Assembly: GCA_009698845.1 (NCBI GenBank)
Contig: WLPI01000007.1
Coordinates: forward strand, 1-33,814
DNA: 33,814 bases
Direction: 5' to 3'
Source of the DNA: Actinomycetota bacterium
GTDB taxonomy: Bacteria; Actinomycetota; Actinomycetes; Nanopelagicales; Nanopelagicaceae
Under the pieces are notes generated by a model. That model was not told where the DNA came from and did not search any database. It was given only the letters and a program-made list of their open reading frames with translations. Every line of letters begins with the position of its first letter. Within the stretch, counting starts at the first letter, position 1. Shown here piece by piece: positions 27,336 through 31,937 of the stretch. The position numbers and the translations under genes were made by a program.

Positions 27336-28219
27336 TAGTCACGCTCCTTGAAATCGCCATCAATCCAGATTCTCTGAAGCATATGCCAATCTTCCGGATG
27401 CTCTGAAATTCCTTGCGCAAAGAGATCCGCAGACCTTTGCACGACCGCTGAAATTCGTTCTGACTCATCACCGTCGGAAGGAACTTCTACTGTATTGAAG
27501 TCGACGTGTATTCCCGTATCTGTATAACTTACATGTGCAACGACCAATGGAATTCCTGTGCGAATTGCTAGCAGAGCTGGTCCTGCTGGCATTCGAGCTG
27601 GAAAACCGAAGAAATCAACATCAATTCCTGAGCGCGACAAATCGCGATCTGCAACAAGTGCAATCAGTCTTTTCTCTCGTGCACGGTTCATGAGTGTTCC
27701 AAAAGAACGAGCATCTAGACCCAGTACCTCAAAGCCCATCGACTGCCGATACTCAAGAAATTTAACGAAGAGAGCTTCGGGCTTTAACCGCTCTGCGACC
27801 GTGACAAGCTGAATTCCCAGAGAACAGAAATATGCACCAGCGTGATCCCAGTTACCGGAATGAGGAAGGATGATAACTACTCCTCGTCCCTCTTCCATTG
27901 GGTCAAGCAGAAGATTCTCATTGTGCAGAGAGACAGATGCGTGAATTCTTTCTATAGACCAGTCTTGAATTCGAAAGGTGTCACACCAATAACGCATGTA
28001 AGAATCGAGAGCCTTACGTACTAGCTCATCTAATTGAGTGGAATTCAACTGAGGAGAAACTCGCGATAAATTAAACCTCAAACGCTGAACGCTAGAACCG
28101 CCCCGGGCAAACATAAATGAACCAGCTCTGGCAAAGAGACGATATGCAGTTTTCTCCGGCAGAGCTCTCACAATTCTCCAGCCCGCAAAATAGACTAAAG
28201 CGGATAATCGTTCCTTCAT
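27335..28219 (-). CDS. Phosphatidylinositol mannoside acyltransferase-like (LpxL/HtrB superfamily)
   Basis: IILPHSGNWDHAGAYFCSLGIQLVTVAERLKPEALFVKFLEYRQSMGFEVLGL...LIALVADRDLSRSGIDVDFFGFPARMPAGPALLAIRTGIPLV. Start at MKERLSALVY (28219) gives an ATGA overlap with the pgsA stop; the ORF track start 28294 lies inside pgsA. Confidence 0.9.
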   Translation of the reverse strand: MKERLSALVYFAGWRIVRALPEKTAYRLFARAGSFMFARGGSSVQRLRFNLSRVSPQLNSTQLDELVRKALDSYMRYWCDTFRIQDWSIERIHASVSLHNENLLLDPMEEGRGVVIILPHSGNWDHAGAYFCSLGIQLVTVAERLKPEALFVKFLEYRQSMGFEVLGLDARSFGTLMNRAREKRLIALVADRDLSRSGIDVDFFGFPARMPAGPALLAIRTGIPLVVAHVSYTDTGIHVDFNTVEVPSDGDESERISAVVQRSADLFAQGISEHPEDWHMLQRIWIDGDFKERD

Positions 28220-28827
28220 TGAATCAGTAAACCTTTTCGAACAACTAGCATCCGCTGAATTACAGTGATGACACCTAAGATTGCCAGTAGCCAAAATCCG
28301 ATTGCTAAAGCAAATGAAACACCAAGTCCATGAAACCCTATGGCAGTCAAGGAGATTATCAATCTCTCGGTCCGTTCAGCGATACCTACATTGCACACTA
28401 TGTCCAAGCTCTCTGCTTTAGCTCGGATGTAAGGAATCAGAATTCCAGAGACCAAAGTAACGATTACTACGTAGCTCAATGGATCCTCGTTGCGCGCCAA
28501 GGAGATGAGAACGCTTACGACGATTGCAGAATCGGTGATGCGGTCAATAGTGGAATCCAAAAAACCACCCCAGGTGCTGGCACCTTTCTGGGAGATTCGA
28601 GCCATTGCACCATCAAACAAATCACTGAGAGCAAAAAAAGATATGACCAATGTTCCTACAAAAAAACGTTCTGTTGAGTAGAAATATGCAGCAGATAGGA
28701 CGACTCCAGTTGCTCCAATGAGAGTTACAGCATTTGGAGTAAGCCCACATCGCAGAGCAAAGCGGGCCACAGGATTAATTAGTCGTGTGACCACCGGTTT
28801 CAGTGCGCTGCTAATCATTGAGAGCAT
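28216..28827 (-). CDS. pgsA: CDP-alcohol phosphatidyltransferase (phosphatidylinositol phosphate synthase, PgsA1-like)
   Basis: SDLFDGAMARISQKGASTWGGFLDSTIDRITD (DxxDGxxAR...GxxxDxxxD) with multiple TMs; synteny with PI-mannoside genes. Start could also be 28818 (MISSALKPVV). Confidence 0.9.
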   Translation of the reverse strand: MLSMISSALKPVVTRLINPVARFALRCGLTPNAVTLIGATGVVLSAAYFYSTERFFVGTLVISFFALSDLFDGAMARISQKGASTWGGFLDSTIDRITDSAIVVSVLISLARNEDPLSYVVIVTLVSGILIPYIRAKAESLDIVCNVGIAERTERLIISLTAIGFHGLGVSFALAIGFWLLAILGVITVIQRMLVVRKGLLIQ

Positions 28828-28842
28828 CGTATTCTTTCCCGC

Positions 28843-29439
28843 ATGACTTCACCTAGCGCTGACGCTGTGAGACGTATCCATATATATGGTCACGTCTCTG
28901 CCTCACCTGCCGCCATCGCTCAGACGTTCTCGGGCCAACACTCGGATACTCCCGTACCGGATTCAGATGTTGCAATCTTTGCTATCAACCCTTCAGCGGG
29001 CATTGACCAAGAAACAATTGACATCTGGGCCGCTCTCGATGATTTTCAAATTCCTCGCTTAGTTGTTGTAACCGGTCTAGATGGACAGGAACTAGATTTC
29101 GAAGATGCTGTCATGGTTGCTAATCGAGTTTTCGATCAACTTGTAACTCCCTATCTTGTTTTACATGATGATGTTGGCTCACCTGCTGCACTTATTCGCC
29201 TGGAAGATTTATCGATCTTGGATTATTCAACGAAACCAATGACTGTAAAACCATGCGATCCTGAACATGAAGAACTTGTCAAAGAGTTTAGAGATGAATT
29301 CTTAGAGCAAATGTCTGAGATGAGCTACGGTGCTTTCGCTGCGGGAATTCTCTTTCCAGCCATACCGCTAAATGTAACTAGTGGAATTGGTGTAGATATA
29401 GTGCAATCGTTTATTGAGCAATTACCAAGCAGCAGCTAA
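28843..29439 (+). CDS. Degenerate EF-G2-like GTPase domain protein (pseudo-GTPase; stand-alone, domains II-V absent)
   Basis: By-eye alignment to the actinobacterial EF-G-like (FusA2-type) G domain: DVAIFAINPSAGIDQETIDIWAALDDFQIPRLVVVTGLDGQELDFEDAVMVANRVFD...DDVGSPAALIRLEDLSILDYS...EHEELVKEFRDEFLEQMSE...GAFAAGILFPAIPLNVTSGIGVDIVQSFIEQLPSSS. No GKT P-loop (GHVSASPAA), no DTPG. Confidence 0.65.
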   Translation: MTSPSADAVRRIHIYGHVSASPAAIAQTFSGQHSDTPVPDSDVAIFAINPSAGIDQETIDIWAALDDFQIPRLVVVTGLDGQELDFEDAVMVANRVFDQLVTPYLVLHDDVGSPAALIRLEDLSILDYSTKPMTVKPCDPEHEELVKEFRDEFLEQMSEMSYGAFAAGILFPAIPLNVTSGIGVDIVQSFIEQLPSSS

Positions 29440-29946
29440 TTCTTCTCTTGTTATTGTAAGAAGCTGTGGAAGCACTTTCGTCTTTCCAATAATTGGCATG
29501 AAGTTCGCGTCGCCCGACCACCGCGGAACAATATGCTGATGAATATGCTCAGCAACCCCAGCGCCAGAAATTGCACCTTGATTCATTCCCAGGTTAATGC
29601 CATCAGCCTTCGATACTTTACGTAACGTCTTCATTGCATGGGCAGTGAGATCAGTAATTTCATGACGTTCCTCGATAGTGAGATCAGTCAGGTCTGCCAC
29701 ATGCCGGAAGGCGCACACCAGTAAGTGGCCTGGGTTGTATGGATACAAGTTCATAACAACGTATGCACTTACTCCTCGATGAACAATAAGACCTTCCTCA
29801 TCGCCCAACGTTGGAATACGACAGAAAGGGCACTCCACTTCATTTCCATCTAGCGGACGGTTCTCACCACGTAAGTATTCGAGTCGATGGGGCGCCCACA
29901 AACGCTGCCACCCATCGGGCATTCCTACGCCGTCGATTTCACTCAT
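29422..29946 (-). CDS. HIT-family hydrolase/phosphorylase (Ap4A phosphorylase-like)
   Basis: CPFCRIPT...YPYNPGHLLVCAFRHVADLTDLT...LGMNQGAISGAGVAEHIHQHIVPRW (HxHxH). Conserved next to thrS/pgsA in actinobacteria. Confidence 0.95.
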   Translation of the reverse strand: MSEIDGVGMPDGWQRLWAPHRLEYLRGENRPLDGNEVECPFCRIPTLGDEEGLIVHRGVSAYVVMNLYPYNPGHLLVCAFRHVADLTDLTIEERHEITDLTAHAMKTLRKVSKADGINLGMNQGAISGAGVAEHIHQHIVPRWSGDANFMPIIGKTKVLPQLLTITREELAAAW

Positions 29947-29948
29947 TC

Positions 29949-31937
29949 TTACACCTGAGTACGCTGAGAAATCGTCGCCAAAATTTCTGCAATCGCATCC
30001 GCTATTGGAACACCGTTCTTTTGTTCACCATTGCGATATCTAAATGAGACAGCTCCTGAATTCATATCTTCTTCGCCAGCAATAATCATGTAAGGAACTT
30101 TTTGCATTTGCGCATTTCGCACCTTCTTCTGCATGCGATCATCTGATGAATCAAGTTCAGCGCGAATTCCTGCAGCCTTCATCTTCTTTATCGCACCGCT
30201 GAGATAGTCGGCGAAAGCGTCTGCTACCGGAATACCCACTACCTGCACAGGTGCAAGCCATGGAGGAAATGCGCCCGAATAGTGCTCTGTAAGAACACCG
30301 AAGAATCGCTCGATCGAACCAAAGAGAGCGCGGTGAATCATCACTGGTCTCTGTCGACTTCCATCTGCTGCTGCAAACTCGAGTTCAAAACGTTGCGGCA
30401 ATTGGAAATCTACTTGGATAGTAGACATCTGCCATGTGCGCCCAATTGCATCCTTTGCTTGCACAGAAATCTTAGGACCGTAAAACGCAGCGCCACCTTC
30501 ATCAAGAACAGTCTCTAAACCTTGTGCAAGTGCGGCCTTACGTAAAGCTTCTGTCGCCTCTTCCCAATCAGAATCCTCTCCTACAGATTTCTCTGGGTTT
30601 CTAGTTGAAAGTTCGAGATAGAAATCCTGTAAACCATAATCACGCAAAAGATTGAGAACGAATGTCAATAATGAATCAAGCTCAGCAGGCATCTGCTCTT
30701 TGGTGCAGTAAATATGGGCGTCATCTTGTGTGAAGCCACGAGCACGAGTGATTCCGTGCAATACGCCAGATTTCTCATAACGGTAAACAGTTCCGAATTC
30801 AAATAGTCGCAAAGGAAGTTCGCGGTATGAGCGTTGGCGTGATTGAAAGATCAAGTTGTGAAATGGGCAGTTCATTGGCTTCATGTAGTACTGCTGCCCC
30901 GCACGTCTTACAGTCCCATCAGCATGAAGCTCTTCATCCAAAATCATCGGCGGATACATGCCTTCTGAATACCAATCGAGGTGGCCAGATTTTTGGAAAA
31001 GAGCGGCTTTAGTTAAATGTGGAGAATAGACAAAATCATAGTTTTCTTCTTCATGACGCTTACGTGAATAATCTTCCATCGCTCTGCGAATAATTCCGCC
31101 CTTTGGGTGAAACACTGCAAGACCAGAACCAATTTCTTCTGGGAATGAAAACAAATCTAATTCTTGCCCAAGTCGACGGTGATCTCGCTTCTCGGCCTCA
31201 GCCAAAAGTTCTAAGTACGCGTTAAGTTCATCTTGCGATGGCCAAGCCGTTCCATAAATTCGCTGCAACATTGGATTCTTCTCTGACCCACGCCAATACG
31301 CCGCGGCGCTTCTCATCAACTTAAATGCTGGAATGTGTTTTGTTGAAGGTAGGTGCGGTCCGCGGCAAAGATCAGACCAAACTGGCTGACCATCTCTTCC
31401 CAGGTTGTCATAAATCGTTAGTTCGGTGCCGCCAACTTCAACACTAGTTTCATCGGTGCCACCACCTTTGATGCCGATAAGTTCACATTTGTATGGCTCG
31501 TGAGCAAGCTCCTTAAGGGCATCCGCTTCAGTTGTTACGCGGCGTTTAAATCTCTGACCATCTTTAACAATTTTGCGCATCGCGCTTTCAATTTTCTCAA
31601 GGTCATCAGGATTAAAAGGAATCTGCGGGTCGAAGTCATAGTAAAAACCATCAGTGATAGGTGGTCCGATGCCAAGCCGAGTCTCTGCGAAAATTTGCTG
31701 TACCGCTTGCGCCATCACGTGAGCTGTCGAATGTCGAAGAACGGATAATCCCTCAGGAGAAGAGATTGATATTCCCTCAACAACATCGCCGTCAGCGAGA
31801 TCCGTCCAGAGATCTCTTAGCGCCCCATTAATTTTGCAGACAACAATCTCTTTATCTTCGGTGAATATCTGCGTGGGTCTCTGATCCGCTTCAACAGAGC
31901 GTTGGGTGCCATTTACGGTCACGTTGATCAGAGACAT
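29949..31937 (-). CDS. thrS: Threonyl-tRNA synthetase
   Basis: TGS N-terminus; [17 protein letters not shown] editing domain; [75 protein letters not shown]. Confidence 0.99.

Follow-up and report, generated by a model that had tools for sequence, protein, structure and literature searches.

We found that a short gene encoding a 198-aa protein, located in a 33,814-nt stretch of actinobacterial DNA (the whole of which we call the window), is an internally deleted orthologue of actinobacterial EF-G2, reduced in situ and kept under purifying selection in nearly the whole family of its hosts, which we take to be Nanopelagicaceae (Ca. Planktophila and relatives, freshwater acI actinobacteria). The protein lacks the elements needed for binding and hydrolysis of GTP, as well as the domains needed for translocation. 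PseudoGTPases are already known; a stand-alone bacterial one derived from a translation factor appears, within the literature that we searched, to be new.

EF-G2 origin and chromosomal site

The gene occupies positions 28843-29439 of the plus strand, starts with ATG and contains no internal stop codons; an earlier note, made from the sequence alone, had described an intact plus-strand frame of 198 aa with exactly these coordinates. The encoded protein is very acidic (pI about 4.1-4.2). Its neighbours were identified from their ORFs and from synteny. A divergently oriented pgsA-like gene for a CDP-alcohol phosphatidyltransferase (28216-28827, minus strand) lies on one side, with 15 nt separating the two start codons. 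On the other side is a convergent gene for a HIT-family protein (29422-29946, minus strand), whose 3′ end overlaps that of the 198-aa frame by 18 nt, followed by thrS (29949-31937, minus strand), used here as a syntenic marker. An ORF scan of the window detected no antisense frame that reaches 80 aa and crosses the body of the gene, and a scan for promoters and terminators revealed nothing exceeding chance for it. PADLOC gave no match, and a defence-system protein was rejected.

The best sequence match of the 198-aa protein was the elongation factor G-like protein EF-G2. The NCBIfam model NF009377 matched it with E=1.3e-16 (60 bits) over profile positions 102-220, and PDB 9k0z, M. smegmatis EF-G2 in a 70S complex (the title shows EF-G2 bound to the 70S ribosome), with E=5e-11, or 2.6e-17 when a 25-sequence family profile was used; Pfam GTP_EFTU matched only below its cut-off. 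The AlphaFold2 model, for which the family alignment was the input (pLDDT 91.5, pTM 0.87), has the topology b1-a1-b4-a3-b5-a4-(G′ strands and helices)-b6-a5. When this model was compared with the PDB by Foldseek, each of the 50 listed matches was to EF-G or to the related RF3, with a best E of 2e-11; the EF-G2 bound to the 70S ribosome of M. smegmatis was among them (E=7e-10). A non-GTPase fold, which the earlier note had named as a possible refutation, is thus rejected. By the profile match and by a genomic site shared across families (below), the protein qualifies as an orthologue of EF-G2 (NF009377). It does not qualify as a functional full-length EF-G2, as it falls far below the curated cut-off of that model (60 versus 890 bits) and has no domains II-V.

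In 80 loci from a public collection of genomes and the genomes of the same genus, pgsA and HIT-thrS flank the gene on every contig long enough to include them, and the pgsA-like gene adjoins it in essentially all such loci. Most of the outgroup-family loci that we fetched carry a full-length EF-G2 at the same pgsA|HIT-thrS site; the exceptions were locus L125, where EF-G2 adjoins the HIT gene and pgsA has moved to the far side of pimA, and locus L127, where the neighbours of EF-G2 were not found. Because full-length EF-G2 usually occupies this very site in other actinobacterial families, the short gene is an orthologue that was reduced where it stood. The derivation from the EF-G2 G domain proposed in the earlier note therefore held, the homology being significant and the full-length EF-G2 at the same site being direct evidence. 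A functional tie to the neighbouring genes is not favoured, since they lie on the opposite strand and EF-G2 was at the site before the reduction.

A full-length EF-G2 hidden by a frameshift or misassembly, which the earlier note had also named as a possible refutation, is rejected: the gap between pgsA and the HIT gene is too small for it, and closed genomes, too, carry the short gene. Of 22 family genomes tested, just one (the sole genome of a genus here called g38) had an EF-G2 above the NCBIfam cut-off, and the closed genomes tested contained canonical EF-G and further translational GTPases but no second EF-G2.

Some local variation was observed. At loci L098-L101 there is no HIT gene between the pseudo-GTPase gene and thrS, so that here the remnant has outlasted the HIT gene. 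At L102, L103, L106 and L107 a long frame of 370-400 codons, probably fortuitous, is open upstream of the remnant, antisense to pgsA. The locus also occurs in public MAG records named Bifidobacterium breve, Streptomyces griseus, Streptomycetaceae or Flavobacteriales (L045, L073, L081, L088, L089, L096 and others); records carrying the remnant under these four labels are evidently mislabelled.

Elements lost and elements kept

The order of losses and survivals, all on the plus strand, was read from alignment to full-length EF-G2 and from DSSP of the model. Strand b1, the dead P-loop and helix a1 (residues 11-30; 28873-28932) were placed by alignment, conservation and the count of the Walker lysine: G1 reads GHVSASPAA, versus GHSGAGKTT in full-length EF-G2, and none of 96 distinct short homologues has the P-loop lysine. 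Next comes a deletion scar (residues 31-41; 28933-28965), the least conserved stretch of the protein, in place of switch I, b2-b3, DxPG/switch II and a2. Between G1 and b4, about 77 residues were reduced to about 18-19; i.e., about 55-60 aa are gone, and with them strands b2-b3, helix a2, both switches and the DxPG box (0/96). Strand b4 and helix a3 (residues 42-69; 28966-29049) are kept in the alignment, with DSSP assigning a strand to residues 43-49 and a helix to 56-68. The G4 motif, ancestrally TKLD, has eroded to TGLD (residues 77-80; 29071-29082), and by motif count [NTS]KxD survives in a single one of the 96 homologues.

The G′ subdomain (residues 99-160; 29137-29322) is recognizable in the alignment and in the strands and helices of the model, without its 3′ helix hairpin. 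A second deletion of about 24 aa, missed by the earlier note, falls here, at the 3′ end of G′ (EF-G2 DETLMDRYLGGEDIDVKVLIDDLE). The protein ends with strand b6, the G5 remnant and helix a5 (residues 161-198; 29323-29436; strand 171-175 and helix 184-192 by DSSP, supported by alignment). Domains II-V are missing, the frame stopping after helix a5 and Pfam detecting no domain II.

With the Walker lysine in 0/96, no DxPG, G4 in 1/96 and domain II absent, the protein does not qualify as a translational GTPase. In fold and motif loss it fits a class (i) pseudoGTPase, a GTPase fold minus at least one G motif, as judged from the pLDDT of the model, the best Foldseek match and the motif counts. The statements of the earlier note on G1, G4, DxPG and domains II-V all held, and its estimate that some 50 aa had collapsed to about 15 is refined to about 55-60 lost and about 18 left. 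Its view that the protein can be neither a GTPase switch nor a translocase is supported by the lost motifs and domains; that the protein is unable to bind GTP is nevertheless an inference, made without binding data.

Strands b2-b3 form the edge hairpin of the GTPase sheet, as follows from the strand order of the G-domain fold. Their loss would, by inference from this topology, leave a contiguous b1-b4-b5-b6 sheet, which would account for a folded product in spite of so large a deletion. The predicted result is a compact four-stranded piece of a G domain together with a trimmed G′ subdomain.

The pattern of conservation has shifted as well. The most conserved columns of full-length EF-G2 are those of the P-loop and switch, and the same columns drift in the short family. 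Near-invariant across the 96 homologues is a signature T-P-Y-L-V-L-H-D-D-x-G-x-P-x-A-L-I (residues 102-118; 29146-29196); within it, L107 and H108 vary among full-length EF-G2 proteins. D85, F86, R95, F149, E152, F165 and P175 are also near-invariant in the short family, several of them variable in the full-length protein.

Some residues of the old P-loop do persist (Gly16 in 91/96, His17 in 84/96 and Ser19 in 84/96 homologues, as well as Pro22), and these would fit a remnant that senses a ligand, binding a nucleotide or another molecule in an unusual way. We consider this explanation unlikely: the Walker lysine and threonine, G2, G3 and G4 are all gone, and the conserved glycine, histidine and serine may merely form a structural turn between b1 and a1.

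Retention in the family and reduction in a second one

The remnant gene was found in 33 of 36 same-genus genomes, and across the order a match was obtained in 195 of 201 genomes, including 107 of the 108 of high quality (the count of 195 covers all family forms, including one bearer of a full-length and five of a 350-aa form, described below). In the six genomes without a match the adjacent HIT gene was also absent or fragmentary, indicating that the locus is missing from these assemblies. The median omega of the remnant gene was 0.075 (Nei-Gojobori, 63 unsaturated pairs); the neighbouring genes gave 0.063 (pgsA), 0.073 (acyltransferase), 0.037 (HIT) and 0.024 (thrS), the first two being on a par with the remnant. 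The 30 shared genomes alone yielded too few unsaturated pairs for dN/dS. The pairs used overlap phylogenetically and the method is simple; the value is still an order of magnitude below neutrality. The gene thus behaves as a selected one, being conserved between species with a dN/dS far lower than 1, and the low omega is not caused by an antisense gene, because no antisense ORF of at least 80 aa lies within the body.

These results bear on the possibility that the gene is a functionless, slowly decaying pseudogene, spared by essential neighbours. In its favour, most EF-G2 domains are missing, and the 18-nt overlap with the HIT gene and the 15 nt to the pgsA start mean that the ends may be constrained for other reasons. 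Against it, the low omega extends across the whole ORF, the good genomes almost without exception retain the gene despite the small genomes of the group, many genera of the family have an uninterrupted frame, nothing of size is encoded antisense to it, and new invariant residues have appeared in compensation. A decaying pseudogene is therefore very unlikely and, as far as tested, refuted by the retention in good genomes and by the omega value. The earlier note had suggested a retained, repurposed pseudo-GTPase rather than fresh debris, and had proposed a search for orthologues at the same locus and an estimate of dN/dS; orthologues were found, under purifying selection, and the retention is supported. 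Near-universal retention under strong selection, without the GTP elements, points to some role independent of GTP and of the rest of the factor. That this role is exerted by an expressed protein is inferred, as we have no expression data.

Two further forms occur inside the family. The g38 genome encodes an intact EF-G2 of 736 aa (L187:6585-8795, plus strand) with Pfam domains I-V, at the pgsA|HIT-thrS site; it scores 1094 bits versus the NF009377 cut-off of 890, and no other intact full-length EF-G2 turned up in the family. Its G′ is already LVLHADDGSPTALINL, like that of the short forms, and it has the LVLHxDDGSPTALI signature. A second genus, g31, carries in all five of its five genomes a form of about 350 aa (L189:6381-7430, plus strand; likewise at L188, L190, L191 and L201) that has no P-loop, keeps the helices after G′ and bears an 85-aa tail. 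The resemblance of these C-terminal 85 aa to EF-G domain V is marginal (about 6 bits, and about 5 of 1000 shuffles score as high), Pfam found no match to them, and the AlphaFold model is poor (pLDDT 42.6), although its predicted bab-bab pattern is compatible with domain V. One g31 genome has an extra 195-aa ORF between pgsA and the remnant gene (L189:5831-6418, plus strand), with membrane segments and a C-terminal end that resembles a SHOCT motif.

In the gene tree all family members, g38 included, form one group (support 100). A species tree built from the neighbouring genes places g38 with g31 (UFBoot 91). A single common reduction, in which g31 groups with the short forms, could not be rejected (AU p=0.19), and whether one or two reductions took place within the family is therefore undecided.

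Outside the family, we screened 247 genomes of the class for short EF-G2 frames. One further short frame that was not a contig-end fragment was found, in genome G346 of another family; it encodes 336 aa and lies between pgsA and HIT-thrS. Most genomes of its genus (g93) carry a 320-360 aa form (L213:8082-9092, plus strand; also L216-L235), and the P-loop and DxPG were missing in 20 of 20 checked. The genomic site was inspected solely at L213, where it is pgsA|HIT-thrS, as in the window. Within g93's own family, 6 of 8 genera gave no match at all. The g93 lineage groups with a bearer of full-length EF-G2, apart from the window's family (UFBoot 100), and this placement indicates at least two separate origins of pseudo-GTPase remnants from EF-G2. 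The two share the EF-G2 parent, the site (at L213), the loss of the P-loop and DxPG, and the retention of the half from b4 through G′; the g93 form differs in its independent origin and in a longer C-terminal tail, the origin of which is unclear. Full-length, 350-aa and 200-aa forms at one locus, together with an independent repeat, make a clean natural case of the birth of a pseudo-enzyme.

Proposed role and significance

The G′ subdomain is where EF-G docks the L7/L12 stalk. Acidic G′ residues of EF-G contact the stalk, and they are mostly conserved in EF-G2 (PMC8446442). In the remnant, the corresponding acidic helix DPEHEELVKEFRDEFLEQMSEM (residues 139-160; 29257-29322, plus strand) aligns with the E. 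coli EF-G helix that bears E224, E228 and E231, and its median net charge is -6 in the short family versus -4 to -5 in full-length EF-G2. Of E224 and E228, the former alone is matched by a mostly conserved acid, E155 (64/96 homologues); E159 is E in 31/96. The support for stalk binding is thus partial, because E155 alone is mostly kept.

We propose that the remnant would work as a nucleotide-independent binding module, an inference for which there are no partner data. Its likeliest target would be the GTPase-associated centre of the ribosome and, within it, chiefly the bL12 (L7/L12) stalk, approached via the acidic G′ helix; we name this partner because the parent factor binds there. The remnant may be a small competitor, buffer or modulator of factor recruitment to the ribosome. 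In this view, what persists is the share of EF-G2's task for which the GTPase cycle was never required. Points in favour are the newly near-invariant residues of G′, the more acidic helix and the same half kept in g93. On the other hand, about 24 aa of G′ are deleted, so that the stalk surface may be altered; the remnant lacks the parts that touch the sarcin-ricin loop, namely the switch regions and domain V; and the overall acidity (pI about 4.2) could possibly explain the acidic helix on its own. We regard stalk or GTPase-centre binding as the best mechanism available, with as much to be said for it as against it in the absence of binding and phenotype data.

Alternatively, the pseudo-GTPase may have a partner other than the stalk, as a scaffold or regulator of a translation factor or of an unrelated protein; candidates would be canonical EF-G or RRF, compare the binding of EF-G by FusB. 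Purifying selection and the EF-G-like fold fit this reading too, scaffolding is common among pseudo-enzymes (PMC5593906), and the newly fixed residues outside the acidic helix (D85-D88, R95, H108-G112) are a possible new interface. However, no evidence singles out any partner, and the context names none: the gene stands by itself, its neighbours are encoded on the other strand, and its position is the one that EF-G2 held ancestrally. We are inclined to doubt this reading, without excluding it. The proposal of the earlier note of a protein-interaction module, either a regulatory partner or a decoy, likewise stays an inference.

Among known systems, the direct orthologue is EF-G2/FusA2 itself (NF009377; PDB 9k0z), with a homologous G domain from b4 to a5 including G′ and the same pgsA|HIT-thrS site; it has about 700 aa rather than 198, and the GTP-binding motifs and domains II-V that the remnant lacks. 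We found no paper, in the literature searched, on EF-G2 as a ribosome hibernation factor. The nearest precedent among translational GTPases is archaeal aSelBL, with its disrupted G domain (PMC3037878), a conserved relative of elongation factors whose P-loop is deleted and which may still bind the ribosome. In contrast to the remnant, which is a G domain alone with both switches lost, aSelBL keeps other domains, including domain II, and also G2 and G3, often with altered residues. In a 2015 survey of the superfamily every identified trGTPase had a G domain and domain II (PMC4342817). The class (i) pseudoGTPases (PMC5593906: p190RhoGAP pG1/pG2, CENP-M, fungal dynein LIC) resemble the remnant in fold and motif loss, but those listed are eukaryotic, and those of p190RhoGAP are Ras-like domains within a large protein, whereas the remnant occurs in bacteria, makes up a whole protein and descends from a translational GTPase. 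The literature that we searched, which was mostly open-access, reports no bacterial pseudo-G domain of a translation factor that stands alone and is kept family-wide, so that a prior mention is possible.

Translational GTPases are usually seen as switches defined by their GTP cycle. Here, in widespread small-genome freshwater bacteria, a natural deletion removed that cycle together with most of the factor, and the remainder is almost never lost. The remnant thus isolates a part of EF-G2 that is under selection, and offers a 21-kDa object, well-folding by prediction, for asking what EF-G2 does. On a bolder reading, which is no more than possible, small-genome actinobacteria have turned EF-G2, at least two times independently, into a GTP-independent regulator that binds the stalk, a new ribosome-associated factor. 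If this is true, the function for which EF-G2 is selected, which is not yet understood, would need neither GTP nor domains II-V.
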